Positions 7,651 to 33,863 of a DNA stretch of 42,975 nt are shown here, in pieces. Position 1 is the first letter of the stretch. Each line of letters opens with the position of its first letter. A model generated the notes under the pieces. It was not told where the DNA came from. It worked only from the letters and a program-made list of their open reading frames with translations, and did no database searches. This stretch comes from a virus. The stretch spans positions 1 through 42,975 of IMG/VR virus record IMGVR_UViG_3300005528_000090. The stretch is one strand, 5' to 3'. Made by a program: the position numbers and the translations under genes.

Positions 7651-7689
7651 TATTGTCTTTCGGGACGAAGTTCTTTAAAGCACTAGCGC

Positions 7690-7978
7690 ATACCTGACCT
7701 GAATAAGTCATCTAGTCACTGCGCATTTGATCTCGATATGTACCTTCCGTCTGCTAGACGTTGTGGTCACTGCGAAGAGCAGGAAGAGATTCGAGGAATG
7801 GCTTTCCTCGGCTAATAAAATAAATCCCTTGTGTGGTATCACTGGACTACACTCGTAAAAAGTGCGTCAAACCTGAGTCCGTCTCAGTTAGGATGTTGGG
7901 CATAGAAACCGAAGGGACTATGCTACTACGGAGAATGAGCATTCCGATTTATCGTCTGCATCTGCCGTGTAAATGGTC
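7690..7978 (+). ncRNA. Structured RNA heading the ribozyme array
   Basis: About 290 nt without a credible ORF but full of self-complementary parts: CGTCT/AGACG (about 7750-7762); CTTCC pairing with GGAAG and, outside it, ATCTC with GAGAT (about 7731-7792); GAGGAA/TTCCTC (about 7793-7809); CTGAG/CTCAG or alternatively GGACT/AGTCC (about 7844-7889); GCATAG/CTATGC (about 7900-7924). It ends in the same GGTC|TTAACC seen at the 3' side of the hammerheads, followed by a 20-nt leader to ATG 7999, yet has no CTGATGA core. It may be another ribozyme type or a regulatory leader. I do not recognise the class. Confidence 0.45.
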
Positions 7979-7998
7979 TTAACCAAAATTTTAAAGTT

Positions 7999-8199
7999 AT
8001 GAACTACAAAATTATTCAAGACACAGAAGGTATTTATGAGCAAGGTTTTTATTTAGTAGTAGACACAGATGTGGATAAGTTTATAGACATTTTTGAGTTT
8101 AAATCTGAAGCAAAAGAATACCTAATGGAAATCAAAAAAAATGGCGTAGAAAATGTGGATTCTTCAATTTACAATGGTCAAAAAAATAAATACGCCTAG
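7999..8199 (+). CDS. Small acidic protein, first gene of the ribozyme array
   Basis: 66 residues (MNYKIIQDTEGIYEQGF start), mixed alpha/beta, no known family. The TAG stop lies 6 nt before hammerhead A. The leader is the common AACCAAAATTTT type, without a Shine-Dalgarno motif, as usual in Bacteroidota. Confidence 0.65.
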   Translation: MNYKIIQDTEGIYEQGFYLVVDTDVDKFIDIFEFKSEAKEYLMEIKKNGVENVDSSIYNGQKNKYA

Positions 8200-8205
8200 A
8201 GAGAA

Positions 8206-8282
8206 GGTTAACTGATGAGCTCTAAATGAGCGAAACCGTAGTGACAATGGTCACATGGGCGAAAGCCCATACGGTCTTAACC
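8206..8282 (+). ncRNA. Hammerhead ribozyme A (type I)
   Basis: Stem I GGTTAA (8206-8211) pairs with TTAACC (8277-8282). Core CTGATGA 8212-8218, stem II GCTC/GAGC with TAAAT loop, GAAA 8232-8235, stem III CCGTA/TACGG. Stem III is capped by two hairpins, GTGAC/GTCAC and ATGGGC/GCCCAT, the latter with a GAAA tetraloop. Expected cleavage is after C8276, 20 nt before ATG 8297. All core bases of the family are present; activity is inferred. Confidence 0.92.
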
Positions 8283-8296
8283 AAAAACTTTATTTT

Positions 8297-8398
8297 ATGC
8301 AAGTATTAATTATCTTTAGCGTAGGCGTTATGTACAGCTTAACTTTGTTTTCAGTTGTATTATTTAGCGAAATGCGTAAACGTAATCAGGTTAACTGA
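8297..8398 (+). CDS. 33-aa single-span membrane miniprotein
   Basis: MQVLIIFSVGVMYSLTLFSV is a hydrophobic membrane helix, followed by a short basic tail (EMRKRNQVN). The last codons GTT AAC TGA are part of hammerhead B: stem I encodes VN and the core supplies the stop. Inside-positive topology suggests N-out. Function unknown; small membrane proteins in phage early regions may act on host membrane complexes. Confidence 0.65.
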   Translation: MQVLIIFSVGVMYSLTLFSVVLFSEMRKRNQVN

Positions 8399-8442
8399 TG
8401 AGGATTAAATATCCGAAACCGCCTAGCTTGGCGGTCTTAACC
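8389..8442 (+). ncRNA. Hammerhead ribozyme B (type I, compact)
   Basis: Stem I GGTTAA (8389-8394)/TTAACC (8437-8442); core CTGATGA 8395-8401; stem II GGAT/ATCC with TAAAT loop; GAAA 8415-8418; stem III CCGCC/GGCGG with a 6-nt loop. Cleavage expected after C8436, 19 nt before ATG 8456. The TGA at 8396-8398 of the core is the stop codon of the preceding gene. Confidence 0.92.
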
Positions 8443-8455
8443 AAAAACTCAAACC

Positions 8456-8626
8456 ATGTTACAGCTAAAAAAAGAAGGCATGTGGTATCAGGTAAAACAG
8501 ATCAGCCTGACTACTGATCCTGAACTTAAAAAAGAGGCTAAAAATTACCTTGCCATTTTAAACACGAAGGATCGGTACAACCACTTCGAGGAAATTAAAT
8601 TGTTCATTCAAAAGCACACTAAATGA
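8456..8626 (+). CDS. Small charged protein, 56 aa
   Basis: Starts MLQLKKEGMWYQVKQISLTT and ends LFIQKHTK; a short strand part then helices. No family recognised. It overlaps the next ATG by 4 nt (ATGA), so this pair is translationally coupled and is the only junction in the array core that lacks a ribozyme. Confidence 0.6.
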   Translation: MLQLKKEGMWYQVKQISLTTDPELKKEAKNYLAILNTKDRYNHFEEIKLFIQKHTK

Positions 8627-8964
8627 AAACAACGTACAACATTGGACTCCTGAACAACGCATTCGTTGAGGATCAAAACACAGACAAAATAGAGAGATTC
8701 TTCTCTAGCCTTAGCGTACTTGGTGTATTTACACGGGTAAGATTCGATACTGGCACATGGGATGGAGATGAACCTACTGCTATCCTAGTCATTGTCTCTG
8801 ATGATGAATTCGATGCTGAAGGTATCTGCCTGAATTTTACCAAATTATTCACGCAGACGGCTGTGGCTATGAGAACAGAAGGCGAGCAAGGTAAACTGAT
8901 ATATCACCCCGATCACACAGGTGATAAAGTAGAATTCGATGAGAAGTACTTCATAGAATTCTGA
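8623..8964 (+). CDS. Hypothetical protein, 113 aa
   Basis: An acidic alpha/beta protein (MKTTYNIGLLNNAFVEDQNT start) with alternating strands such as ILVIVSDDEFDAEGICLNF. No catalytic motif is recognised. The TGA stop abuts the first G of hammerhead C. Coupled to the preceding 56-aa gene by an ATGA overlap. Confidence 0.65.
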   Translation: MKTTYNIGLLNNAFVEDQNTDKIERFFSSLSVLGVFTRVRFDTGTWDGDEPTAILVIVSDDEFDAEGICLNFTKLFTQTAVAMRTEGEQGKLIYHPDHTGDKVEFDEKYFIEF

Positions 8965-9026
8965 GGTTAACTGACGATGGGTTAAATACCCGAAACCTAG
9001 GGCAGAAATGCCCGATGGTCTTAACC
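8965..9026 (+). ncRNA. Hammerhead ribozyme C (core variant, possible loss of function)
   Basis: Stem I GGTTAA/TTAACC (9021-9026). The core is CTGACGA (8971-8977); the C at the variable position is allowed in the family. One extra T (8978) separates the core from stem II GGGT/ACCC, which may weaken activity. GAAA 8992-8995; stem III is CC, internal loop, GGGCA/TGCCC with a GAAA loop, GG. Cleavage would follow C9020, 21 nt before ATG 9042. Confidence 0.8.
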
Positions 9027-9041
9027 AAAAACTTTATATTT

Positions 9042-9311
9042 ATGAAAATGATTATCGAAACCACGCCAAACGCATACGGATTTGGTCACGATTGGACATT
9101 GGTAGCAGGCAATAAGAGTTTTTATCTTGGTCAGGATGTTAAATTCTGCCAAAGGGTATTGGGAATGCCTCCTTCATATGTGGCTGAGAATATCGGAACA
9201 AACGATCTGAGCACATCTACAGCCAGAAGAAAGCTTGCCGCATTCATCGTGCAGTCACTGGGGATTGATGATTTCTCAAACATTCAATCTTGGGAATTGT
9301 GTTGTCAATAG
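9042..9311 (+). CDS. Hypothetical protein, 89 aa
   Basis: Starts MKMIIETTPNAYGFGHDWTL and contains FYLGQDVKFCQRVLGM and a helical C-terminal half; similar short proteins occur, from memory, in other Bacteroidota phages, function unknown. An in-frame ATG at 9015 lies inside hammerhead C and would be cut off by cleavage, so 9042 is preferred. The TAG stop shares its G with hammerhead D. Confidence 0.65.
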   Translation: MKMIIETTPNAYGFGHDWTLVAGNKSFYLGQDVKFCQRVLGMPPSYVAENIGTNDLSTSTARRKLAAFIVQSLGIDDFSNIQSWELCCQ

Positions 9312-9368
9312 GTTAACTGATGAGTCCTGAATGGACGAAAGGGTAGGCTATAGCCTGTCCTCTTAACC
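9311..9368 (+). ncRNA. Hammerhead ribozyme D (type I)
   Basis: Stem I GGTTAA (9311-9316)/TTAACC (9363-9368); core CTGATGA 9317-9323; stem II GTCC/GGAC with TGAAT loop; GAAA 9337-9340; stem III GG, internal loop, AGGC/GCCT, internal loop, CC. Cleavage after C9362, 22 nt before ATG 9385. Its first base is the last base of the preceding stop codon. Confidence 0.92.
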
Positions 9369-9384
9369 ATAAAAATCTACAACT

Positions 9385-9669
9385 ATGTTACAAAGTAAAC
9401 ACTCCGAAATTGTAAAACTATTAGACAGATCATTTGAGTTATTTAACGGTCATATTAATAACGGTGGAAAACTTGATTATTCAGAAAAAGAGTACGGATA
9501 TTTAAGTGATGAAATAGAGGACGTACAAGTTGGGTATTTAAAAGACGAGGATGTGGACGGATCTTACGCAGATAGATTACGTGAAGAAGGTTTTAAAATG
9601 ACAGAAGATGATGCATACAATACTTTAAAGCATCGAATTGAGAGTATTGAAGATGAGTTACAAGGTTAA
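9385..9669 (+). CDS. Acidic helical protein, 94 aa
   Basis: Very acidic and helical (MLQSKHSEIVKLLDRSFELF start, HRIESIEDELQG end). No family recognised; the charge would suit a DNA-mimic or a protein-protein inhibitor, but this is speculation. Its TAA stop (9667-9669) is formed by stem I of hammerhead E. Confidence 0.65.
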   Translation: MLQSKHSEIVKLLDRSFELFNGHINNGGKLDYSEKEYGYLSDEIEDVQVGYLKDEDVDGSYADRLREEGFKMTEDDAYNTLKHRIESIEDELQG

Positions 9670-9723
9670 CTGATGAGTCCTGAATGGACGAAACCTAGGG
9701 GCTCTGCCCCGATGGTCTTAACC
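9664..9723 (+). ncRNA. Hammerhead ribozyme E (type I)
   Basis: Stem I GGTTAA (9664-9669)/TTAACC (9718-9723); core CTGATGA 9670-9676; stem II GTCC/GGAC with TGAAT loop; GAAA 9690-9693; stem III CC, internal loop TA/GAT, GGGGC/GCCCC with a 3-nt loop, GG. Cleavage after C9717, 19 nt before ATG 9737. Stem I encodes the upstream TAA stop. Confidence 0.94.
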
Positions 9724-9736
9724 AAAAACTTTTACA

Positions 9737-10162
9737 ATGAAAGAAGCAAAAAAGTATTTAGGATCTCTGGTGCTAGTAACAGAAGCGCATCAAGAAAAAA
9801 TAGAGGAGTATTGTTTAAACTTTGATACATCCATTGATGGTGGCTTTGCATTCCCTTGCGATAAGGATGGCAACATATTGCAAAAGGATCGGTGGGGAAG
9901 GGAAATGAGTGATATAGCTATTCAAAACTACAATCGCTGTGTATCAGGAGAGGTGAAAACAATCAGACCTGCATACGTTAAAGACCTATCAAGGATGTAC
10001 TATAACCACGCTGTATGTAAATGTCATTGTGGTAAAGAATTAAGTATGCAACCATCAAGTGATGGATTAGTTTACTGCGAATGTAATAGGATGTACAATA
10101 CAGCAGGTCAATCTATCAGACCAAGAAGTGAATGGGAGGAGAGGTATGATGATGATTATTAA
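9737..10162 (+). CDS. Hypothetical protein with Cys/His cluster (possible zinc ribbon)
   Basis: 141 residues. The C-terminal third has CKCHCGKEL followed about 16 residues later by YCECNRMYN, a plausible zinc-binding ribbon. The N-terminal part (EAHQEKIEEYCLNFDTS) looks helical. The tail is strongly acidic (EERYDDDY). Zinc ribbons often bind nucleic acid or protein. Stop directly abuts hammerhead F. No family assigned. Confidence 0.65.
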   Translation: MKEAKKYLGSLVLVTEAHQEKIEEYCLNFDTSIDGGFAFPCDKDGNILQKDRWGREMSDIAIQNYNRCVSGEVKTIRPAYVKDLSRMYYNHAVCKCHCGKELSMQPSSDGLVYCECNRMYNTAGQSIRPRSEWEERYDDDY

Positions 10163-10239
10163 GGTTAACTGATGAGGATTAAATATCCGAAACCGTAGTG
10201 ACAGCAGTCACAGAGGCGAAAGCCTCTACGGTCTTAACC
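10163..10239 (+). ncRNA. Hammerhead ribozyme F (type I, branched stem III)
   Basis: Stem I GGTTAA (10163-10168)/TTAACC (10234-10239); core CTGATGA 10169-10175; stem II GGAT/ATCC with TAAAT loop; GAAA 10189-10192; stem III CCGTA/TACGG with two capping hairpins, GTGAC/GTCAC and AGAGGC/GCCTCT with GAAA tetraloop. Same branched design as copy A but with different, compensated arm sequences. Cleavage after C10233, 19 nt before ATG 10253. Confidence 0.94.
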
Positions 10240-10252
10240 AAAAACTTTTACA

Positions 10253-10564
10253 ATGAAAAAAAATCAATCTAAAAAAACGACAGAAAAAAAGCCATTAATT
10301 TTGGACAGAGTACAATTTATCAGGTGGATGTTCTCTGATTACGATGATAGAAAATGTTTCTTTGACAGGCATAATGTATTAGAGGATCTTATTTCCGATG
10401 GGGAATTTTCAATTAATGATGAAAGCTTATTACAAACCGCAGGGTACATACCGGTAGATGTTGTGCATAAAAGTCAGAAAAAAGACGTTATACTTGATAG
10501 GCATGGAGAGGTTGATACATTTCAGTATAGCGATATACAGTTTTACAAAAAGAAGGTTAACTGA
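10253..10564 (+). CDS. Hypothetical protein, 103 aa
   Basis: Lys/Thr-rich basic N-terminus (MKKNQSKKTTEKKP), then acidic helices (QFIRWMFSDYDDRKCFFDRH). No family recognised. It ends KKKVN, the VN and TGA being encoded by stem I and core of hammerhead G. Confidence 0.65.
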   Translation: MKKNQSKKTTEKKPLILDRVQFIRWMFSDYDDRKCFFDRHNVLEDLISDGEFSINDESLLQTAGYIPVDVVHKSQKKDVILDRHGEVDTFQYSDIQFYKKKVN

Positions 10565-10614
10565 TGAGGATTTAGTATCCGAAACCTAGGGGCTACGCCC
10601 CGATGGTATTAACC
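10555..10614 (+). ncRNA. Hammerhead ribozyme G (type I, GTA cleavage site)
   Basis: Stem I GGTTAA (10555-10560)/TTAACC (10609-10614); core CTGATGA 10561-10567; stem II GGAT/ATCC with TTAGT loop; GAAA 10581-10584; stem III CC, TA/GAT internal loop, GGGGC/GCCCC with TAC loop, GG. The cleavage triplet is GTA instead of GTC (A10608); A at this position is permitted by the NUH rule but usually slower. 19 nt to ATG 10628. Confidence 0.9.
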
Positions 10615-10627
10615 AAAAAAAGATAAT

Positions 10628-10888
10628 ATGTACGCACTATTTGACCATGCAGAGGGTTTTATCTGCTCTATTGACAAAGATGAATCTGATCCTTTATTCT
10701 CAACCCTAAAGAATGAAAGAAGGTTAGGGAATGCTATTAAGCTGGCATGTTCTATGGTAAATGAAGATGAAGTAGAAATAAAGAATATTAAAGTAAGTAA
10801 AAGCAGATTCGATATTCTATCAGTGAATGCCAAGATGATGGATGGCTCAGAGTACGAATGTGAATTGTATTCATGCAGACATTTCTAA
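10628..10888 (+). CDS. Hypothetical protein, 86 aa
   Basis: Acidic N-terminal part (MYALFDHAEGFICSIDKDES) and a beta-rich C-terminal part ending YECELYSCRHF, with four cysteines in all. No family recognised. Stop is followed by a decayed hammerhead (H). Confidence 0.6.
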   Translation: MYALFDHAEGFICSIDKDESDPLFSTLKNERRLGNAIKLACSMVNEDEVEIKNIKVSKSRFDILSVNAKMMDGSEYECELYSCRHF

Positions 10889-10937
10889 TGCTAACTGAGA
10901 TGATCGAATGGCGGTAAAGTAACACAATTTCTTAACC
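10889..10937 (+). ncRNA. Hammerhead ribozyme H, degenerate copy
   Basis: Aligns with copies D and I: CTAACTGA, then a GA insertion, TGA, a shortened stem II retaining GAATGG, AAAG in place of GAAAG, and TTTCTTAACC at the end (10928-10937). Stem I is broken on the left, the core is split and stem II no longer pairs. It is probably inactive, but the 3' leader after the old cleavage point is kept, about 18-20 nt before ATG 10951. Confidence 0.75.
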
Positions 10938-10950
10938 AATACTTTTAAAT

Positions 10951-11046
10951 ATGATAAACTTTATTATCTTTATGATTGGCTTCTGCTCCATTGCTTTGGT
11001 TAGCTTGGCTATCCACCTTTACTTTAAAAGAAACAAGGTTAACTGA
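10951..11046 (+). CDS. 31-aa single-span membrane miniprotein
   Basis: MINFIIFMIGFCSIALVSLA followed by IHLYFKRNKVN: one membrane helix and a short basic tail. Closely parallels the 33-aa gene at 8297 (same size, same RN-x-VN ending), although the helices are not clearly homologous. The ending VN-stop is encoded by hammerhead I. Confidence 0.65.
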   Translation: MINFIIFMIGFCSIALVSLAIHLYFKRNKVN

Positions 11047-11088
11047 CGAGTCCTGATTGGACGAAAGGGGGTCACTCCCCTCTTAACC
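11037..11088 (+). ncRNA. Hammerhead ribozyme I (type I, compact)
   Basis: Stem I GGTTAA (11037-11042)/TTAACC (11083-11088); core CTGACGA 11043-11049; stem II GTCC/GGAC with TGATT loop; GAAA 11063-11066; stem III GGGG/CCCC with a 6-nt loop. Cleavage after C11082, 20 nt before ATG 11103. TGA 11044-11046 in the core is the upstream stop. Confidence 0.92.
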
Positions 11089-11102
11089 AAAAAACAAAAG
11101 CC

Positions 11103-11381
11103 ATGGTAAACTTTCCAAATGGGTTCACATCTTGGATCGAAACACATCACGAGGTGGTATCCTACATTACAAGACAATTAGATTTAAACGACTACATGAC
11201 CGAAGGCACCAAGGTCAGGGAGATGTATGAGACCAAAGGCACTGGCGGTATGTACGAGTTAGCCGAAGAATGGACAAACGAGTTCGAAACAGAGAACAAA
11301 GACATGGAATGGGACGGAGAATTCTTTGATGAGATGGAGATATTTTTAAATAAAAAGAACTATCTATGTCAGAGCATTTAA
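11103..11381 (+). CDS. Acidic protein, 92 aa
   Basis: Starts MVNFPNGFTSWIETHHEVVS and is rich in Glu and Asp (EEWTNEFETENKDMEWDGEF). From memory, similar acidic helical proteins occur in other phages; function unknown. Last gene directly preceded by a ribozyme. Its end overlaps the next gene by 16 nt. Confidence 0.7.
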   Translation: MVNFPNGFTSWIETHHEVVSYITRQLDLNDYMTEGTKVREMYETKGTGGMYELAEEWTNEFETENKDMEWDGEFFDEMEIFLNKKNYLCQSI

Positions 11382-12055: not shown

Positions 12056-12147
12056 TGTAGGGTGGTGAAATGGCAAACACGCCGCCTTGTCTCGGTGGTG
12101 AGCATGGTAAGTACCGGCTCTTGGAGGTTCGAGTCCTCCCCCTACAG
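12056..12147 (+). tRNA. tRNA with type II (Leu-like) body and GTC anticodon
   Basis: Acceptor TGTAGGG (12056-12062)/CCCTACA (12140-12146); D stem GTG/CAC with a GG-containing loop; anticodon stem CCGCC (12082-12086)/GGTGG (12094-12098), loop TTGTCTC with anticodon GTC at 12089-12091; a long variable arm closed by GAGC/GCTC with GGTA/TACC inside; T arm GGAGG/CCTCC with TTCGAGT. The body matches bacterial tRNA-Leu closely, but GTC reads Asp codons, base 37 is T (normally a purine), the discriminator is G and the first pair is T-A. CCA is not encoded. Confidence 0.8.
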
Positions 12148-12162
12148 CTAATTTTACACATT

Positions 12163-23034: not shown

Positions 23035-26000
23035 CTAATCCTCTGCGTTTCTTCTTCCTATCTTACCATCTTTATCAAATGCTCTGAATGTTTCTCCAGT
23101 TACTATTGCTATCATTGTTCTTCTGTCTAGTCTAGATGACCTCAACCCTTCAAGTAGTTTGTCCTTAGGATATCCAAGAGTCAATGCGTCAACATATAAC
23201 TTATGCAATCTAAGCACTTCTTTATTATATCTTTCGTTAGCCTTGTCCTCGTATGACTCATTGTTCTTAGCTGCTCTGTTAAAGTCTGTAGATATATCAG
23301 AGAACACAGATCTATTTGAGTTAAATAATTCAGAAGTCCACTTCCTTCCTATGTTTATTGTATACGGTCTAGCTCCAATAGGTGCAGCGTACAACTCTGA
23401 TGGGTTAAATCCATACTGAAGTTTACCCTGGTCATCTCTTCTGTAGAACATTCTATTAAACCACGTTACCACTCCAGGTGTCAAAGTCTCCTTAGCTACA
23501 TACAATGATCCGTCAAATAATTTTCTAAAGTATGAATCGTCTTCATTGTATATAGAGAATCCATAAGAATCCTTGTTCATTATAGCGCTAGAGAATGCTC
23601 TAAGTGTCATCTCCGGTTCTATAAATGGCGCCACCACTTCAAGTCCTGCTGCTATAGCACCACCCTTTTCATCGTACTCATTGCCGTATTTATACGCATT
23701 GAATATGTTATATATAGTAGCATAAGGATCTACTGACGAGAATGTATAGTACTCAACAATCCCGTCTTTAATCTTAGATGCATTGTAAATCTTATCATCA
23801 CTCTTAGCCCAGTCTGCAACGAATGAATTGATTGCCATCTTCTCCTTGTCCTCATCATCTCCTCCACCCCACAGTGACGAAGCAAGTCCAGACACGCCAA
23901 GACCAGCGTACTTAGCAAGAAGGTAAATACCCTCCATTCTTATAGCGTTATAGGTAGCGATACCGAGAAGTCTCTTAGTACCATATGCAACCATTCGTTG
24001 GTTCTTTTCTTTGATACCGTTTCTTATATCATTGTATGCATATGCATATGTATTGGCCATAACCCTAAACACTTCAGCTCTGAATGCTACGAAGTTGCCA
24101 AGTACGCCAGTCTTACTTACAGTTTTAAATATCTCAAGAACCCTATCGTAAGTTGGATACGTATTCATCACCCTATCAGCAGCTTCATTGTCAACAATGT
24201 CCTTCTCAGCTTGAGTTAGTGATTCATAGTCCTTGCCATACTTAACTTTAGACATTGATCTTTGCTCGTTATAGTAGGCGTATATCTTCCAGAAGTCATC
24301 CGATGCTTGATACACTCTTGACGTTCCTCTTGTTGTAGCTCTCCATAACTTACCAGGATCTGATATGTAATCCTGAATGCCAGACTTGTCTGCATTGTCT
24401 AGAACATATTGCTCGAAATCATTTGTTCTAAATATTTCTGCAAGTTCCTTAGCGGTAAGGCTTTGGTTTAACACACCTCTTTCAAACAGAGGTCTCAGAC
24501 CTTCGAGTACGTCTTGCGTTTTATTATTTATAACCTGTCTCCTAAAGTAAGACCATGCATCAGATAAAGCGGTAACATCGAAGTGTCCATTGTGAAGAGC
24601 AAACCCTGTGTTAGATACAAAGTTCTTTGCTTGAGTAACAGGTGAGAATACTGTCTTCATCATCTTGTTAAGATTCATCAATCTCCACACCCACTTGAAG
24701 TTGCTAGACCTGTTGTTATCAGTTTCTACCAAAAGATCATACATATCCTTTGTGGTATATAAACCTTCAAGAGGTTTTAACGCCTGACTCGTTGAGCCTA
24801 TTCTGTATGTCGCATCTGCTGGAGCATTGCCTTCTTCAAAAAATACAGTACCTAGACCGAAGTCCCTTAACTTAGCAAGGTAGTCTGAAGTCTGTAGAAG
24901 TGTGGCAGTCTCACCAACACTTAAAAGGAATGCGGTACCCGGATCAGTATACTCACCCATCAAATCTCTTAACCATTGAGGAAGTTCCTGTCTTTGCTTT
25001 AACGAACCTGTATTTCTATATGGAAGAAAGCTTGCCTCATCTCTTCCAAAGAATGGTTTCTTAGAATCAAGTATTCTGTTTATCTCCTTGTCGGCCTCTT
25101 CATTTGACTGAAGGATAATCTCCGCTTGTGTTAAGCCTGGATTAGTATTAGTTAAATGAACATAGTATAACTGGAATAGATTCTGATGAGCTGTGTCGAT
25201 AATTTTTTTATTATCCTTAACTTTCTTAGACCATTCGTCACCCATAGTAAACAAGGCGTAAGATCTGTGAACATACTTACCCATGTTGGATTCTATAGTA
25301 AGCGCTGTTTCCGGTGATACAAGACCGTTCCTAACAAGCTGTTCACTTATCCCATCAAGAAGAGCTCTCATGCTCACAACAAATTCCCTCATCTCTACAG
25401 GAAGATTAAAGAATGATGGATTGGTATTAGCAGCAGGAGAATATCCTGGCTGTCCTCCAACCCAGAATGGGTTAGTAGGATTGTATGTTCTATAATCTCT
25501 TAACGCCTGATCGAATGTGGTCCAATCTTTAAAGTCAATCTTCTTGGCAGCCTTCTTCATGTCATTAACCATAGACTCTGCAAGACTTACTTGGTAACTA
25601 AGCTTACCTCCAAGCGATTCTTTTAGAGATATAATTTCCTTAGGCAATCCCTTAGAAAAAGTAAAGTATTTCCTGAAGAACGCCTTTGTAGCATCTTTAA
25701 TTTTCTTAGATCTAGTTCTAGTATCGCCAACATAACCTCTAGAGTTTACGCTAGGAACAATACCCTGTACAGCAGATGGATTCAATGGCTTAGTGAAGTT
25801 CATTCTCTTGGCATTGAATAAAATATTCTGAGCCACCATCTCGCTAACCTGAGGATAACCCTTCATTATTGTAGCCTTGATGATGTTATCTCTTTGATTC
25901 TCAGCCTCTTGCATTGACGAGTATATACCGTGGGTGTTACCGTTTACAGAAAGCGTAAACCCTACAGGACCGGTACCGGTGTTCTCTGTAATCTGGAACA

Positions 26001-29000
26001 TGCCATTGTTGAGCATTGTTCTAGCTTCATTGATAGCTCTCTCGGACCAACCGTCGTCTAAACCATATCTTGAGGATATAGACAACTTAGCTGTAGGTTG
26101 GCTAAGGAATATGTTTCTAGTGTATCTTGCTGGAGCTTGATCCTTATACAATGCTTCGGCATCAGAGAATGATATAGTCTTACCACCTCTATTTATAAAA
26201 GTAGGAAGAACCTTTTCTACCTCATAAGCATCATCAAGTAAGAACACTTCCACATCGCCATCTGCTTTTATTGCAAATGGATATGATTGATGGTATGCCT
26301 CTCCATCTTTAGACACAGATGTCTCGGCAACAGTTGGTGTACCTTTAAATCTCATGATAGCTACAACTGTTCCGTTTCTTAACCCAGATAAAGATGGTTC
26401 AGAAAGTTTATCAGATACTGATTTAAAATCAGGCATACCTATTTCATTGATACCACTCTTAGTATTCCCAAGTAAGGACATAAGGAATGGTTTCCTTGCA
26501 TCAAATCTAGCCGATTCAACAGAGAAATATTTATTAATCTTATCTGATATTTTAGATAGTGAATCATTTGCAGAAACAATATCATCACCTGTCGCTCTTC
26601 TAGAAGCCTTATTAACTCTATCTGCAACTACAGATGCCGGAACTTTTAATGTCTTTATAATGTCAGACGCAAAAAGTATTGAGTTATAATTACTCATATG
26701 AGAATCTGTAGACATTGCCATAATCGCTATATGTCCAAACCCATCCTCATCGTATACGATATCATTGATTATAGACTTTGCCTTATTAGCTGTAGACGAA
26801 GCCCATATATATCCTTTATTTGCAGCAGCATAGAATATACCACCAAGTTTTCTATGTGGGCTTTTAAAGCCTTCATAGTCAACAAGACCAGTAGTAAGTC
26901 TATCTGATGATATTATGACAGCATCCTTACCGGCAAAGTCATTTATAGAAGCTCTTTTAATGTTATCAACCATCCCTGGTATTCTATTCTCAACATTAAA
27001 AGACAATGGTATACCAGGAGATGTTTGAGCTTTTAATTTACCAGTGCCATCTGTTTCGTTAAACCCTTTCTTAAGTTTAGCATACTTAGGATTTGTTTTA
27101 ATACCCCAACCTTCTGGCATCTGGTACCACTCAGGCTTAACCTTGTTAGTGGTCTCGGCCCTGAGTTGCTTACCCCATTTAGCTACAACCATTTCATATC
27201 CCTTAGCATTAGCGACCTTAGTAATCCAGCCTATCTGTTGGTTAGGTCCAAACGCCATACCAGGATGAGACTTCTCGAACAATGCCTTAGCTTCATCAAA
27301 GAAGTTTAATGGATCAGCAGTTGCTGGGTATACCTTATCCTTAAGAATCTTAACAACATGGCCATAGTCACCAACACCCATCTCCTGGAAGTCAGGTCTT
27401 GTGTAGAAGAATGCAGCGCTAGGTCTAGCAATTCTTTCTTCTCTTGATGTTATTCTATTATTACCAAACTTGTTAGGATCAATAACCTTTCTTTGCTCGT
27501 TAGACCAGTGGAAGAAATAGTAGCTATCAGCATCCTCTGTCATGAATTTACTGTATGGTTTTGATTCCATTACAGACTTAACAGAAGCCTTTGGTCTTTG
27601 AATGTCCTGTGTCTCTACAGTTCTATACTCCCTCTTGGTAGGGTCTACAAACCTTGCCTCTACATTTCTAGCCTGTTCCTCTCCTTTAGAAGTATAGTAT
27701 GCGAACTTAGCGGCTGCAAGAGTTTTATTATACAGATCTAACTCATTGCCGGTATATGATTGACCATACTCAAGACCTCTTATTGTATTTGCTGCTGTTG
27801 AGAATCCAGACTTTTCAAATATACCTGATAGTCTTTCTTTTGCGTTATTGAATTCAGCCTTTATGTTTGTGCCTCTAGGTAAGTTATCTTTTGACTGTAT
27901 GAAATGTTGTATCTCATGAAGCATAGCAGAAGTGTAATCACCGCCAACAGCTGCATACTTATCTGCATCAACATTAAGTCTTATTAGATTCATGTCCTGA
28001 CTAAAATTAGCCAAGTATGTATCATTAAACCTAGACACCTTAACCCTTAATTTTTTGGCATCAGGATATAACTTAAAAAATTCAGGATAAGATAACACGT
28101 TAGCAAGAGGAAGCATTGCAAATGGCTCACCTCTTCTATCCATGCCATCAACTACATTATTAATATCTGCAATGATCTTAACATTATAGTCCAACTCAGT
28201 CATCCACTTACCATCAATATTCTCCATACCGGTCTGCTCCCATATATCGTCAGGAGTCATACCTTCAGATTCCATTCTCTTAGCATTATCAAGTCTAGAC
28301 TTAACCTGAGGCGACTGTATCGCAAACCTCTCAGCTGAAACTACAGAAGGCTTAACTCCTGTTGCTTCTACCTCTACATCTGAAGATGAACTTAATAGCA
28401 CTTCGCCGCCAGACAATATATCCATAGCTGCCAAATCAAGGAACTCTCCAAGATTAAGGTTCTCAATGTTTACATCAATGCCAAACTTCTGAGCTACAAA
28501 ATTAAACAAGTCTGACAACCACGTTAAGAAGTTGTTCCTCCTTGCCATATCTATTATGTCTGCACCTCTCTCACCTATCGCCAATATCAAAGCCTCCTCT
28601 TCAATATCCTCTGGTTCTAAGTCCTTGTACTCATCAATCGCTCTAACCCTTGCCTCGTATTCTGTACCCCTAATTAAATCCCTACCTCTCTTTGTAATGT
28701 TCTTATCAACCATATTCGCCACAGCATACCATACGTGACCGAACTCATGTATAGGCGTATCCAATCCCATCTTGTCTGGGTTGATGTATACTGTCTTTGT
28801 ATTAGGATCGTAGAAACCAGCGTACTCTTTATACTCAGTAGGGAACCCAGCCTTCTCTACATTCTCATCGTAGTTATCCCATACCATACTAAGCCCAGGA
28901 ATCTTTTTACTCCATGAATTCAGTAAGGCGTGAGACAGTATCTGCATGTCTGTCTTTGCTGTAAATATGGTATCTCTAATACTAGATGCAACCTGGTTAG

Positions 29001-32000
29001 CCTTTGCAGCCTGATCCTGTTGCCAAGCCTCAAAGTCCTGCTCGTTATCAAAGCCAGATTGTTTAATTAAATCAAACGCCTCTGGAGATACATCAGGATA
29101 CTTGGCTGAGAACTGCTCTCTAGTCATTGTCCTAGCGTCAGACATCCTTGTGTCTTCCTCTGGAGTCAAAGGTCTTGCCTGAACTGGTGCAGTTACTTCT
29201 TGGACTGGTGCACTTACCTGTTCAACTGGTGTAACCGATGGTGTAGCCGCTGGCGCAGCTGGCGTAACTGGTGTAGCTGGTGTAACTTCCGGAGCAGCAG
29301 AGTAAGCCTCCTCTATATTAGAGAACTCTTCAGGAAGGAATCCCATCTTCTGTTCAGCAAAAGGTCTTTGAGCTGGAGGAATATATCCTTCATCACCCTT
29401 CTTCTTCATTGACCCATCAGGATTCCTAAGACTTCTATTAAAGTTAACCCATGAGTTTTGCCCACGAGTCTCGGTAGTCATTGCCCTTCTAGCTAAAGGG
29501 GAATACATTCTTGCGTGTACATTCCATGCATTCTCCTCACCTATAGCGCCGAATGAATTACCAAGTCTTGTGTGCCCGAAATAGTCATGAACAAATCTGA
29601 ATACATCGTTCACCAAAAGAGGTCTTCCATTAACATCCTTAAATCCACTATCCCTAAGCATTGCATTCTGCTGTCTCTGCTCGTCTGTTATCTTAGTATC
29701 ACCAAAGCCAGCTTCTGTAGAGAAGATGTACATATGCTTGTTATCTCTAACGTCAGCAATCATCTCACCAGAGTTCTTGTATGGCTCACCTTCTCCAGTC
29801 CATACCTCTACCTTAACGCCTGATTTAGAGATGGCGTCAAACTGGTCCATTGTTTCATCGGCCAAAGCCTTGTATGCGGCCTGTACCTGTGGGTCATTTG
29901 GACTGTCTACCATTTGCTCATAAGCATCAGCAATAGTCTTAGACCTGTTTTCGTCAATAGCCGTAATCTTAGCTGGTTCAGGAGTTACAATGCCCTTCTC
30001 TTTCTTGAACTGTTGCTCTACAATAGCAGCCTCTGGGTTAGGGTCATTAAACAATCTTTTACCAGGAGCTACTGGAGCTACTTGCGTTTCGCCGCTGATA
30101 TTGATATTGCCAACATCTGCTGTAGGCTGCGTGGTTTCGACTTGGATTTGTTCTCCTTGCTGAGCTGGCGCATATTCTCCGATACGGCCTTCTGGTACGC
30201 CTTCTTGCTGGAGCCTTTCGCTTTCTTGAGTGGCATCTTGTTCTTGTTTTAATTTTGAATAAATAGGTACACCGTTCTCGTCCTTGATAATTTCTACAGC
30301 ATCTTTTCTAAATGCATCTGATAGAGCCTCATCAGACGTAGACATTATTGTTCCAATGTTTGCATCAAGCTGGTCTATCTGACTTTGGAATACAGGTCTC
30401 ATAGACTCAGGAGATGTCTTCATCTGAGATAGAAGAGACTCCTTCTTAGCAAGTGTAGACCTAATAGATAACCACTTAACATCAGATATACTCTCAGGCT
30501 TCTTAAGAGATAACGATATAGGAAGTTCCTTAATCATGTCATTCACAAACTTCTCATCTATTTTCTCAGAACCTGGTACCTTATTAGCCTTAGAGTTTCT
30601 TAAGTCAAGTAAACTATTATAAACTTTATCGTATCCGTATTCATCAACTAAAGAATAAACTGTCTCAGACCTTCTATTACCTACAGCTCTAGCAGAACCA
30701 CCCAATAAAACTAGAGGCCCAAGTGTTAATCCAACTCCTATGTTATCAATAACGGATCTGATATTAAACACATCCTCATCAAAATTATAATTACCTATAC
30801 CATTTGTTACTCTATTCTGCAATCCCTCAACAAATAATTGGCCATTCTCTTCAAGACCAAATTCTTTTAATGCAAAGTTTGCAACCTTAGGAGAAAGATC
30901 TTTTAATGTATTGTAAATAGCTGCACCATAATCAGAGAACTTAACATTCCCAGATACTTCAGTCATCACTTTATTCAATTCATTATTGAATCTTGATCTT
31001 AATTCTTTTGTAGATACCTTCATTTGAGGGAAGACATCCTTTACATTTACAAGATTCTCTAATGCTGTTTGTACTAAATTCTTTGCTACTATATGAGTAA
31101 GAATGCTAGACGTTCCTTTCATACCGGCTCTTTCAGCATTCTCCCATTCATCATAAAAGTGACCAGAAGTAAATACGCCGAATAATCCTGGGAATCTATT
31201 TACATATTTTGCAGCAGCTGATGCTCCTTTTATCAATCTAACCTCAGGCGCTAATAATGTAGAGACTAAGTCAAACCCAGCAGTACCAGACATGTTAAAT
31301 AGGTTTAACGTATAGTTCTTAAATGAAAATGTACCATTTGAATTTGTCTCAGGTAGCATCTGAACTCTTGTGTATCTATCTATTTCATTGTCACGAGTTT
31401 GTGTTGCAGCAGCCCAATAGTCTGAACCTCTAGCTCCGCCATCAAGTCCAACCCATCCACCAATATATGATCCAGCTTGTCCACCTAAACCTATAACAGA
31501 ATTAACAAATGACAATCCAGCATTCAAGAAACTTGTCGCAAATCTTGCACTTCCATCAGTTAAAAAATTACCAGTTTCAATACTAATACCTTCTGCCTCC
31601 CTTGCCTTATCTTCTGTAACAAGAGCTTGCTTCTTTAGCATTTGTGAATTCTCCCTGTTAAGAAAATCAAGCTCATCTATCTTGGCCATATTTTCTATAT
31701 ACTCAGGAGACTCCATTTTTTCAAAGTAGTAAGTATAGTTTGGATTGTTTACTACTTTCTCGTTAAATGTTTTAACGTTGTTGTTATACGTATTTACTAG
31801 ACTTGTGTAAGTTCTTAATGCTTCTTTATCTCCGCTTTTAGCAGCACTATACAATGATTGAATTCTTGATTGTATCTTAGTTTGCGTAACATTAAATTTT
31901 GCTAATTGCTGTTCAACATTTTCCTTTACTGAACCTGCGGTAGAAGCAAACGCAATGAAAGGTATACCATCAATCTTAGTTTGATTGATGTCATCCTTTA

Positions 32001-33837
32001 AATTTTGTGCTCTTGTTTGAGCGAATTCCGCTAAAGATTTTTGTAGGTTTTCAGCACTGAATGTATTTACATTCTTCCAGTTATCATCTTTCTTTAACCA
32101 ACCAATATATTCATACGCCAAATTTGTAAGACCATGTTTACCGCTTTTCTTCCCGCCAATTAAAGCTGTAAACAAACCCTGTCTACTATAGAGGTCCCAA
32201 TTTTCTATAAGCGCATCTTCAAATCTTATCTGGTCTTTAATCTTAGTCCAATTCTTTTCTCCATAAACAGCTTCGCCAAGAGCCTTAGTCATATTACCGG
32301 CGAACTTATATCTGTCTACTTCAACTTTCTTAGATTTAACTAATGATCTTTCTAGTACTCCTTTCTTTCTTAATAATTCTGGGTCATTAGGATTATTTTT
32401 TAATTGATCTTTTATATCATTAAGATCAGACTCTATCATCTTTGGTGATCTTACGACACCTGTTATGACTATTTCTTCATCCTCTTTTATTAACTTAGGA
32501 AGATTAGTCTCAGGATCAATTACCGGCTCACCAGTTTTAGGATCAATCTCTTGTCTAGATTTTGTGTATGAGAATGCATTTTCACCAACACCGTATAATG
32601 ATAATCCTTTAGTGTTTTGAGTTTCTAAATCAGCTATCTGAAATTGATTAGCAAAATATTTACCTGATTTACCAACAGTTAAATAAGGAATCCTTTGATC
32701 TGGTATACCCTGTGAAATATCCCACCCTCTCTTATCTTCTCCAGGTGCAAGCCTGTCTATAGCTACTGTAGCAAGAGGCTGATCAGTATAAAACTTTTTA
32801 CCTGTTGGCTTTACTTCTTTATAATGATGGTCGCCATTATCATCCTGCCAGTATAGCCAAGCTCCACCATTTGGAACTCTTACATTATCACCTTCTTTTA
32901 AATTCTCAACCCTTACTGCATATTCTGGCGTAGGTGCACCCTTGTCGTGAAGTGTTCCGTTAATATATACAGGTTGTTCTGTAGGTCTTTCTATGTACTC
33001 TGGCTTTGCAGAATTAGACCAATACTCTAGATACTGATCCCTTTTCTTAACTGCATCTAAATAACCAGGACTGCTTATATCACCCTTCTTAACAAAGCTC
33101 TGAATAATAGATGAGTAATTATTATAGTTCTCATCATCGTCAAAGAAATATGAAAACGCCATGTTATCTCCAGGGTTTGTCAATGCAGCAGCAACCCTTG
33201 CTTGAGTCTTGGTAACCTTTCTGCTAGATGGGATAGATGAAAATAAATCCTTCTGCTTCTTGACTAATCCTTCATAAATAAGACCAGCCTGATTCTTAAA
33301 TAGTGAATTCAACTCATCAGTGAATTCTTTATCTATTTTATCCTTAACCTCTTTGCCACCAGGAGCATTTATTAATTGCTCATAAGTTTGATTTCCTGAT
33401 GATATTGCACCTAACTCATACTCAAGTTTCTTATTATATTTTTCATCAAGTCCAGCCTTAATACCTGTATATAACTCATTTAATTTATTATCGGCATTTT
33501 CGTACATCGAGAAGAAATCCTTTCTAATCCTTCTAGGAATTCTTCCAACATTTTCCTTGCTAATATTAAAAAAATTTAGCTTAGGAATCTCGTCATCTTG
33601 AGTTGGCTCTGGGATATTTGGATCTGGTATAATTGTAGGCTGATTATTATTTACATTCTGCTGCGTCGGGTCAGGTAGATTCGGGTCTGGGAGACTAGCG
33701 TCTGTGAGACTAGGGTCTGGCAGGTTTGAAGTCTGATCCTCTACCATATTTTGATCTTGTAAATTACCTAAGTCAAGGCTGACTGGTAATGGTTCTGCAA
33801 GAGGATTCTTATTGAATGTAAGTAAGTTATAACTCAT
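23035..33837 (-). CDS. Giant polyvalent ejection protein, 3,600 aa
   Basis: Probably packaged in the head and injected ahead of the DNA. Start ATG 33837 (a TTG two codons earlier is possible). Visible parts: a D/P-rich spacer (residues about 40-80, PDP repeats); a conserved polyvalent-protein module with VHDYFGH (1417) and GEENAWNVHARM ... TETRGQNSWVNF; a Pro/Ala linker (about 1512-1554); two separate zinc-peptidase-like motifs, HEFGH (1697-1701) and HEIQH (1974-1978); an ADP-ribosyltransferase-like stretch near 2105-2200 (FFHWSNEQR ... SAAFFYTRP); a long helical C-terminal region with hydrophobic segments (near 780 and 3300) that could cross the membrane. Polyvalent proteins of this kind are known from phages and conjugative elements. 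Confidence 0.85.
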   Translation of the reverse strand: MSYNLLTFNKNPLAEPLPVSLDLGNLQDQNMVEDQTSNLPDPSLTDASLPDPNLPDPTQQNVNNNQPTIIPDPNIPEPTQDDEIPKLNFFNISKENVGRIPRRIRKDFFSMYENADNKLNELYTGIKAGLDEKYNKKLEYELGAISSGNQTYEQLINAPGGKEVKDKIDKEFTDELNSLFKNQAGLIYEGLVKKQKDLFSSIPSSRKVTKTQARVAAALTNPGDNMAFSYFFDDDENYNNYSSIIQSFVKKGDISSPGYLDAVKKRDQYLEYWSNSAKPEYIERPTEQPVYINGTLHDKGAPTPEYAVRVENLKEGDNVRVPNGGAWLYWQDDNGDHHYKEVKPTGKKFYTDQPLATVAIDRLAPGEDKRGWDISQGIPDQRIPYLTVGKSGKYFANQFQIADLETQNTKGLSLYGVGENAFSYTKSRQEIDPKTGEPVIDPETNLPKLIKEDEEIVITGVVRSPKMIESDLNDIKDQLKNNPNDPELLRKKGVLERSLVKSKKVEVDRYKFAGNMTKALGEAVYGEKNWTKIKDQIRFEDALIENWDLYSRQGLFTALIGGKKSGKHGLTNLAYEYIGWLKKDDNWKNVNTFSAENLQKSLAEFAQTRAQNLKDDINQTKIDGIPFIAFASTAGSVKENVEQQLAKFNVTQTKIQSRIQSLYSAAKSGDKEALRTYTSLVNTYNNNVKTFNEKVVNNPNYTYYFEKMESPEYIENMAKIDELDFLNRENSQMLKKQALVTEDKAREAEGISIETGNFLTDGSARFATSFLNAGLSFVNSVIGLGGQAGSYIGGWVGLDGGARGSDYWAAATQTRDNEIDRYTRVQMLPETNSNGTFSFKNYTLNLFNMSGTAGFDLVSTLLAPEVRLIKGASAAAKYVNRFPGLFGVFTSGHFYDEWENAERAGMKGTSSILTHIVAKNLVQTALENLVNVKDVFPQMKVSTKELRSRFNNELNKVMTEVSGNVKFSDYGAAIYNTLKDLSPKVANFALKEFGLEENGQLFVEGLQNRVTNGIGNYNFDEDVFNIRSVIDNIGVGLTLGPLVLLGGSARAVGNRRSETVYSLVDEYGYDKVYNSLLDLRNSKANKVPGSEKIDEKFVNDMIKELPISLSLKKPESISDVKWLSIRSTLAKKESLLSQMKTSPESMRPVFQSQIDQLDANIGTIMSTSDEALSDAFRKDAVEIIKDENGVPIYSKLKQEQDATQESERLQQEGVPEGRIGEYAPAQQGEQIQVETTQPTADVGNINISGETQVAPVAPGKRLFNDPNPEAAIVEQQFKKEKGIVTPEPAKITAIDENRSKTIADAYEQMVDSPNDPQVQAAYKALADETMDQFDAISKSGVKVEVWTGEGEPYKNSGEMIADVRDNKHMYIFSTEAGFGDTKITDEQRQQNAMLRDSGFKDVNGRPLLVNDVFRFVHDYFGHTRLGNSFGAIGEENAWNVHARMYSPLARRAMTTETRGQNSWVNFNRSLRNPDGSMKKKGDEGYIPPAQRPFAEQKMGFLPEEFSNIEEAYSAAPEVTPATPVTPAAPAATPSVTPVEQVSAPVQEVTAPVQARPLTPEEDTRMSDARTMTREQFSAKYPDVSPEAFDLIKQSGFDNEQDFEAWQQDQAAKANQVASSIRDTIFTAKTDMQILSHALLNSWSKKIPGLSMVWDNYDENVEKAGFPTEYKEYAGFYDPNTKTVYINPDKMGLDTPIHEFGHVWYAVANMVDKNITKRGRDLIRGTEYEARVRAIDEYKDLEPEDIEEEALILAIGERGADIIDMARRNNFLTWLSDLFNFVAQKFGIDVNIENLNLGEFLDLAAMDILSGGEVLLSSSSDVEVEATGVKPSVVSAERFAIQSPQVKSRLDNAKRMESEGMTPDDIWEQTGMENIDGKWMTELDYNVKIIADINNVVDGMDRRGEPFAMLPLANVLSYPEFFKLYPDAKKLRVKVSRFNDTYLANFSQDMNLIRLNVDADKYAAVGGDYTSAMLHEIQHFIQSKDNLPRGTNIKAEFNNAKERLSGIFEKSGFSTAANTIRGLEYGQSYTGNELDLYNKTLAAAKFAYYTSKGEEQARNVEARFVDPTKREYRTVETQDIQRPKASVKSVMESKPYSKFMTEDADSYYFFHWSNEQRKVIDPNKFGNNRITSREERIARPSAAFFYTRPDFQEMGVGDYGHVVKILKDKVYPATADPLNFFDEAKALFEKSHPGMAFGPNQQIGWITKVANAKGYEMVVAKWGKQLRAETTNKVKPEWYQMPEGWGIKTNPKYAKLKKGFNETDGTGKLKAQTSPGIPLSFNVENRIPGMVDNIKRASINDFAGKDAVIISSDRLTTGLVDYEGFKSPHRKLGGIFYAAANKGYIWASSTANKAKSIINDIVYDEDGFGHIAIMAMSTDSHMSNYNSILFASDIIKTLKVPASVVADRVNKASRRATGDDIVSANDSLSKISDKINKYFSVESARFDARKPFLMSLLGNTKSGINEIGMPDFKSVSDKLSEPSLSGLRNGTVVAIMRFKGTPTVAETSVSKDGEAYHQSYPFAIKADGDVEVFLLDDAYEVEKVLPTFINRGGKTISFSDAEALYKDQAPARYTRNIFLSQPTAKLSISSRYGLDDGWSERAINEARTMLNNGMFQITENTGTGPVGFTLSVNGNTHGIYSSMQEAENQRDNIIKATIMKGYPQVSEMVAQNILFNAKRMNFTKPLNPSAVQGIVPSVNSRGYVGDTRTRSKKIKDATKAFFRKYFTFSKGLPKEIISLKESLGGKLSYQVSLAESMVNDMKKAAKKIDFKDWTTFDQALRDYRTYNPTNPFWVGGQPGYSPAANTNPSFFNLPVEMREFVVSMRALLDGISEQLVRNGLVSPETALTIESNMGKYVHRSYALFTMGDEWSKKVKDNKKIIDTAHQNLFQLYYVHLTNTNPGLTQAEIILQSNEEADKEINRILDSKKPFFGRDEASFLPYRNTGSLKQRQELPQWLRDLMGEYTDPGTAFLLSVGETATLLQTSDYLAKLRDFGLGTVFFEEGNAPADATYRIGSTSQALKPLEGLYTTKDMYDLLVETDNNRSSNFKWVWRLMNLNKMMKTVFSPVTQAKNFVSNTGFALHNGHFDVTALSDAWSYFRRQVINNKTQDVLEGLRPLFERGVLNQSLTAKELAEIFRTNDFEQYVLDNADKSGIQDYISDPGKLWRATTRGTSRVYQASDDFWKIYAYYNEQRSMSKVKYGKDYESLTQAEKDIVDNEAADRVMNTYPTYDRVLEIFKTVSKTGVLGNFVAFRAEVFRVMANTYAYAYNDIRNGIKEKNQRMVAYGTKRLLGIATYNAIRMEGIYLLAKYAGLGVSGLASSLWGGGDDEDKEKMAINSFVADWAKSDDKIYNASKIKDGIVEYYTFSSVDPYATIYNIFNAYKYGNEYDEKGGAIAAGLEVVAPFIEPEMTLRAFSSAIMNKDSYGFSIYNEDDSYFRKLFDGSLYVAKETLTPGVVTWFNRMFYRRDDQGKLQYGFNPSELYAAPIGARPYTINIGRKWTSELFNSNRSVFSDISTDFNRAAKNNESYEDKANERYNKEVLRLHKLYVDALTLGYPKDKLLEGLRSSRLDRRTMIAIVTGETFRAFDKDGKIGRRNAED

Positions 33838-33863
33838 AAACAAATGTACGAAATTATTTCTAA

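Follow-up and report, generated by a model that had tools for sequence, protein, structure and literature searches.

Hammerhead ribozymes at successive gene junctions of a phage operon and their probable role as punctuation of the early transcript

The stretch of DNA analysed here, called the window below, is one IMG/VR virus record, IMGVR_UViG_3300005528_000090, taken over its full 42,975 bases (positions 1 to 42,975); the gene products that it encodes include an integrase, a DNA primase/helicase, a dNMP kinase, a RecE-like exonuclease, a virion protein and an endolysin. The + strand carries, from 7999 to 11381, a row of open reading frames (ORFs) of 31-141 amino acids (aa), and between them lie copies of one RNA motif that has the make-up of a type I hammerhead ribozyme (HHR). 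Seven copies within 8206-11088 are complete, one (8965) carries an extra base and one (10889) is decayed. An intact copy consists of a stem I of 6 bp (GGTTAA/TTAACC), the sequence CTGAYGA, a stem II of 4 bp, GAAA, stem III and a final TH (TC or TA), after which the RNA is predicted to be cut. The initial annotation had reported nine copies, and the coordinates and cut positions that it gave for them proved exact. The parts of the array are as follows, all on the + strand and with bit scores where a copy was matched by the covariance model described below.

7999..8199, +, small ORF of 66 aa, the first gene of the array, without a Pfam match
8206..8282, +, HHR1, intact type I hammerhead, predicted cut before 8277 (61.8 bits, E 2.2e-15); stem III has a three-way junction with two hairpins at its end
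8297..8398, +, small ORF of 33 aa, its stop TGA within the CTGATGA core of HHR2
8389..8442, +, HHR2, intact type I hammerhead, predicted cut before 8437 (65.6 bits)
8456..8626, +, small ORF of 56 aa
8623..8964, +, small ORF of 113 aa, its stop immediately adjoining HHR3
8965..9026, +, HHR3, hammerhead with one extra T between A9 and stem II, predicted cut before 9021 (43.8 bits)
9042..9311, +, small ORF of 89 aa, with homologs in other phage contigs that bear hammerheads
9311..9368, +, HHR4, intact type I hammerhead, predicted cut before 9363 (56.8 bits)
9385..9669, +, small ORF of 94 aa, its stop TAA forming part of stem I of HHR5
9664..9723, +, HHR5, intact type I hammerhead, its stem III containing an internal loop, predicted cut before 9718 (58.3 bits)
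9737..10162, +, small ORF of 141 aa
10163..10239, +, HHR6, intact type I hammerhead, stem III branched as in HHR1, predicted cut before 10234 (60.3 bits)
10253..10564, +, small ORF of 103 aa, its stop TGA within the core of HHR7
10555..10614, +, HHR7, intact type I hammerhead in which H17 is A, predicted cut before 10609 (49.4 bits)
10628..10888, +, small ORF of 86 aa
10889..10937, +, HHR8, decayed copy in which only the TTAACC leader at the 3' end and remnants of the 5' half survive; has no hammerhead fold
10951..11046, +, small ORF of 31 aa, its stop TGA within the core of HHR9
11037..11088, +, HHR9, intact type I hammerhead, predicted cut before 11083 (65.9 bits)
11103..11381, +, first gene past the array, 92 aa, PHROG 34395, of unknown function

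The gene at 11103-11381, which is the sole significant match of the small array proteins to Pfam or PHROG, is followed on the same strand by further genes, among them those for the integrase, the primase/helicase, the dNMP kinase and the RecE-like exonuclease. Ahead of the first array gene lie some 340 bases without a clear gene (7655-7998), ending in GGTCTTAACCAAAATTTTAAAGTTATG, the same leader that is found 3' of the ribozymes, here without a hammerhead. The TTAACC leader at 7979 was considered as an extra copy and rejected, there being no hammerhead core upstream of it, and the structure of this 344-nucleotide (nt) leader region was not beyond the usual.

The identification of the array copies as type I hammerheads is strongly supported by several lines of sequence analysis. 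The catalytic core (CUGANGA ... GAAA ... UH, with the pairs A15.1-U16.1 and 10.1-11.1) is complete in seven copies, a count made earlier and confirmed here; the copy at 8965 has it with an inserted base, by which it is probably impaired, and the copy at 10889 does not retain it. Chance hits are rare, the strict descriptor giving 0.02 matches per Markov-resampled window on either strand. Folding agrees: the minimum-energy fold is a hammerhead in all seven intact copies; the centroid structure equals it, or nearly so, in six, and in the copy at 11037 it is off by one stem III pair. Three helices round the core, with stem I open to the flanking RNA, are recovered alike by the folds, the covariance model and the covariation.

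The covariance-model search that the initial annotation had named as a check succeeded in one form and not in the other. At the gathering score, the Rfam scan of the window reported no hammerhead; with a relaxed threshold, hammerhead models appeared at 17.8-32.1 bits against cut-offs of 34-56, and the window matches to the nearest models (RAGATH-1 hammerhead, Hammerhead_HH9 and Hammerhead_1) all stayed below the gathering score. The failure to reach these cut-offs is a limit of model sensitivity and not a defining chemical feature. Our own covariance model, trained on 27 hammerheads of which 26 came from other contigs and one was the copy at 11037, recovered eight copies in the window, their E values ranging between 1.4e-16 and 3.4e-10, and had no further hit under E = 1. 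In the alignment of the 27, 99.1% of cells pair and both sides change in 14 of 17 pairs, the proposed tertiary pair discussed below being counted among the 17; the covariation score is 0.825, compared with 0.152 for shuffles and 0.05-0.12 for slid structures. The compensated changes originally noticed in stems II and III are thus borne out over the larger set, in which they occur in all three stems. Within the window, HHR3 (8965-9026), HHR5 (9664-9723) and HHR7 (10555-10614) have a stem III internal loop in common (CCTAG.../..CGATGG), beyond which the changes of stem III are compensated; the loop may be a tertiary docking motif.

The high activity of natural hammerheads at low Mg2+ comes from contacts between loop II and stem I (PMC6155905), and the copies found in viral contigs carry a candidate for such a contact. 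Among the hammerheads selected by GGTTAA, the base just 3' of the 3' strand of stem I is A in 91% and the base just 5' of the 5' strand is A in 98%, both positions having lain outside the search pattern. The former base changes in step with the final base of the stem II loop: where that loop has 5 nt, A is matched by U in 104 of 114 cases and U by A in 12 of 12 (Fisher 3e-11, a value inflated by ignoring the relatedness of the sequences), and contigs L151, L112 and L012 each contain both types. In a further set with other stem I sequences, the covarying contact recurs as A-U, as U-A and also as G-C, and all seven intact copies of the window have the A-U form. Judged from these alignments, the covariation between loop II and the stem I flank bears the mark of the tertiary contact on which natural hammerheads depend for speed. 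The nearest likeness is to the Schistosoma-type type I hammerhead with its open stem I, which agrees in core, topology and contact from loop II to stem I; the array copies differ in having a stem I of only 6 bp, a conserved A flank on each side in place of the internal loop, and a contact made up of one covarying pair, between the last base of loop II and the base after stem I. These features bear on the idea that the copies are merely stable intergenic hairpins, acting as message 3' ends or termination signals and no longer cutting. The GC-rich stem III hairpins do stand immediately after a stop codon, as that idea would have it; the stems, however, are not followed by a U-tract and no terminator is listed at these sites, so they are not intrinsic terminators, and an unpaired core and a loop II contact would not be conserved in inert hairpins. 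We consider this explanation very improbable.

The placement of the hammerheads relative to genes is strict. The flanking sequence was long enough for 135 hammerheads: an ORF of 40 aa or more ends on the 5' side of 117 of them and one begins past the cut in 120, the corresponding counts for the antisense strand being 42 and 10; both flanks are coding for 68% of 269 hammerheads and for 15% of random positions. The upstream stop codon falls at fixed offsets, either just before stem I, as TAA within GGTTAA or as TGA within CTGA, and an ATG follows 18-24 nt past the cut in 78% (n = 129) and 19-22 nt past it at all nine copies of the window. The leader after the cut is A-rich, and a Shine-Dalgarno-like stretch is rare in it (20 of 149). 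The ribozyme is the entire intergenic gap: stop codon, cutter and leader in one. Such regularity is hard to reconcile with selfish or mobile ribozyme repeats of the retrozyme kind, inserted between the genes by chance. One motif in many copies would suit such repeats, and related type I hammerheads of animals do lie in retrotransposon repeats (PMC7761336); yet all copies are on the coding strand, at gene ends and with fixed distances to stop and start, their stems differ from one another, and beyond the ribozyme there are no common flanks and no element body, the intervals carrying different genes of 31-141 aa and only the ribozymes repeating. This explanation fits poorly, as does that of inert hairpins, and we think it equally improbable.

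Arrays of this kind are found in other phages, and the motif, its stems varying freely, is common among IMG/VR viral contigs. The pattern GGTTAACTGAYGA...CGAAA has at least 120 matches in viral contigs, the majority of them extending to TTAACC as an entire hammerhead, whereas a similar pattern in a far larger genome collection gave 51 stretches with six hammerheads. Most short-pattern matches in the latter are chance, and the difference between the two collections indicates that the GGTTAA-type hammerhead is mainly viral. When stem I was left free in a scan of the collected loci, 103 type I, 16 type III and 16 unassigned motifs were obtained, with many different stem I sequences, the usual form being a 6-bp stem I with A on both flanks. 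Counts over whole contigs reach nine in G005, eight by the model and nine by the descriptor in G004 (an Aliivibrio metagenome-assembled genome record), seven each in G006 and G001, and five each in G002, G012 and G015. The hammerheads of these arrays lie on one strand with small genes in between. In several arrays, that of the window among them, stem I varies little or not at all, and in G012 it changes from copy to copy. Close relatives of the window itself were sought with less success: its DNA had no match among cultivated phages, and a search of viral contigs by primase/helicase found no near relatives. A 60-nt hammerhead consensus gave no more than weak, partial matches in cultivated phages, the best at E of about 2.

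At junctions of this kind in related phages, the place of the hammerhead is in some cases taken by another element. Some homologs of the small genes are there preceded by a compact tRNA-like element, consisting of a 7-bp acceptor-like stem, a 10-nt linker with ATGGT, a 6-bp T stem and a TTCGANT loop, with an ATG at a median of 19 nt past its stem. A descriptor of this element matched 78 times in 39 loci and 0-2 times in resampled sequence, many of the loci having been chosen by the element pattern; 12 of its 13 pairs change on both sides, and its covariation score is 0.863, compared with 0.165 when shuffled. In the loci tested, neither Rfam nor ARAGORN recognised it, and it is absent from the window and from the pure hammerhead arrays, where it was sought. 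The elements form arrays of up to six at phage gene junctions. Two contigs further hold a match to the twister-P1 ribozyme and, as a side observation, these contigs also bear hammerheads and tRNA-like elements. The matches are located as follows.

L097, 2450-2490, 2966-3008, 3550-3591 and 4236-4279, tRNA-like elements
L314, tRNA-like elements in six copies
L330, 8660-11416, tRNA-like elements
L309, L310, L313, L315 and L328, further contigs with tRNA-like elements
L097, 1247-1308, twister-P1 match (47.9 bits, E 9e-8; cut-off 67.2)
L017, 7657-7721, minus strand, twister-P1 match (47.5 bits, E about 1e-7; cut-off 67.2)

In L330, a single strand reads ORF-HHR-ORF-HHR-ORF-HHR-ORF and then has five tRNA-like elements, mostly between further ORFs, and L097 combines one twister-P1 match, one hammerhead and four tRNA-like elements. 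The architecture of the tRNA-like element resembles AT1, a model substrate of acceptor stem and T stem-loop that is cut by RNase P (PMC11143913), from which the phage elements differ in being natural, in their 10-nt ATGGT linker and in having an mRNA leader behind them; they are predicted substrates of RNase P or RNase Z. This armless element is possibly a new RNA family and a signal for processing by these enzymes. The hammerhead, twister-P1 and tRNA-like classes have no sequence in common, and the evident property that they would have in common is that the RNA is cut, which for the tRNA-like element is the expectation. No other argument for a processing function is as strong as this sharing of one kind of junction by classes unrelated in sequence.

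The same observation is relevant to a view in which cleavage is incidental and the hammerheads serve mainly as short homologous linkers for the swapping of small-gene cassettes. Comparison of the related phages G004 and G005 puts several breaks of homology at hammerheads; unrelated genes stand between the same two hammerheads in L151 (1000-1224) and L298 (2429-2593), and a gene common to L151 (2624-2849) and L298 (3373-3599) lies behind a different hammerhead in each, with the homology starting at the ribozyme. Cassettes are indeed exchanged at hammerheads, be it as a consequence or as a side use. Linkers, however, need no preserved pairing, core or tertiary contact, and stems II and III differ widely between copies; the tRNA-like and twister elements fill the same niche without sequence homology, and homology breaks also at plain junctions that have no hammerhead. 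As the main role of the array, exchange is in our judgement unlikely.

The array is probably, on this sequence evidence, a set of type I hammerheads punctuating one polycistronic early transcript. The best-supported account of its role is processing, a view that draws on the geometry of stop, cut and ATG over about 130-220 hammerheads, on the covariation of the tertiary contact and on the other cleavage elements in the same niche. The early transcript would fold and cut itself after H17 at seven sites, giving near-monocistronic messages. Each would start with 5'-OH-UUAACC and an A-rich leader of about 20 nt and would end, just past the stop codon, in the stem II and stem III hairpins with a 2',3'-cyclic phosphate. 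The pieces between the cuts would be 160, 926, 355, 516, 375 and 474 nt long, most with one gene; the 926-nt piece would hold three ORFs if the copy at 8965 is inactive, and the 474-nt piece two because the copy at 10889 is decayed. What the sequences show is the hammerhead structure, selection on the helices of the core and on the contact of loop II with the stem I flank, the placement at gene junctions and the recurrence in other phages; we infer that cleavage takes place in the infected cell, that it serves to make separate messages and that these gain in stability or in evenness of translation. Ends with 5'-OH stay out of the RNase E route that depends on 5'-monophosphate, and E. coli seemingly does not rephosphorylate them (an unpublished remark), both according to PMC4191395; a stabilisation of the messages would for these reasons be plausible.

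Several points weigh against punctuation of this kind. Two of the nine copies are damaged, so the separation of every gene is not strictly required. The promoter search identified none with confidence, and a single transcript is therefore assumed from the direction of the genes: Bacteroidetes-type promoter matches were absent at the array and sigma-70-like and terminator-like matches were at chance level, which also leaves promoters inside the array unsupported. A ribosome that ends translation of the upstream gene would sit over the ribozyme core, in possible competition with folding. Finally, the homologs that small genes of the window have in related phages mostly do not adjoin a hammerhead, and some homologs in relatives have neither a hammerhead nor a tRNA-like element next to them.

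Cutting at the junctions could also serve an opposite end. The ribozymes might be down-regulators or timing devices: a cut would take away the 5' triphosphate or uncouple translation, and the expression or the lifetime of the early messages would be limited by it. Small early genes of phages are often toxic genes for host takeover, and cuts at the junctions would end the translational coupling of neighbours. For a halovirus hammerhead, a salt-dependent modulation of the transcript has been suggested (PMC3088659). The leader, however, is short, A-rich and at a fixed distance from the ATG, and looks like that of a translated message, and 5'-OH ends would argue for stability (PMC4191395). Down-regulation is, we believe, quite unlikely.

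Processing as the role of clustered hammerheads has a precedent. Perreault et al. 2011 described multiple hammerheads flanking single prophage genes and proposed processing into mRNAs of gene or operon length, with cleavage in vitro of fragments of about 2 kb and, for A. tumefaciens, of a triple arrangement in E. coli; in a halovirus, an mRNA 5' end maps within 3 nt of the hammerhead site (PMC3088659). The window resembles these clusters in having several close hammerheads on the coding strand that flank phage genes, and it differs from the tandem or triple arrangements tested there in that a single operon has nine copies, seven of them intact, at one junction after another and with a fixed geometry of stop, cut and ATG, and in being missed by the current Rfam cut-offs. 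The novelty claimed in the initial annotation therefore holds in part: clustered prophage hammerheads and their processing role had been published, whereas arrays of seven to nine copies, their strict placement and tRNA-like elements at the same places appear not to have been described, going by open-licence papers only, which is weak evidence. Clustering has been known since 2011, and the window looks like a denser case with a strict placement rule, part of an apparent broader habit of punctuation. That bacterial self-cleaving ribozymes cluster near one another, for reasons unknown, has also been remarked (PMC10085705).

Two other systems are useful for comparison. The RiboJ-type insulators of synthetic biology, in which a ribozyme before a gene gives a uniform 5' end, are engineered, single and only upstream, unlike the array of the window. 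In the tRNA punctuation of mitochondria (PMC8601606), cleavable elements between genes cut polycistronic RNA into single messages; here the cutter would be the hammerhead itself or, in related phages, an armless tRNA-like element without an anticodon arm. A wider proposition is that many phages have a viral counterpart of that system, in which interchangeable elements (hammerhead, twister-P1, or an apparently undescribed armless tRNA-like RNA that host RNase P and/or RNase Z would presumably cleave) at successive junctions of an early operon yield single-gene messages with a leader of about 20 nt, the window being the pure-hammerhead form. We regard this proposition as evenly balanced between right and wrong.

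The role of bacterial and phage hammerheads is an open question in the literature (PMC6155905, PMC10085705), and the fixed geometry of stop, cut and ATG makes it open to a simple test, seven 5'-OH ends being predicted. The exchange of hammerheads for tRNA-like elements or for a second class of ribozyme points to RNA cleavage as the selected property. If this is true, a section of the phages makes its early proteins from messages that have processed themselves, which present-day annotation, with its Rfam cut-offs and ORF-only pipelines, overlooks.

Two further features of the window were noted in passing. A tRNA-Asp (GTC) lies at 12056-12148, between the array, which it closely follows, and the integrase gene, and the late region on the minus strand contains, at 23035-33843, a single open frame of 3602 codons.

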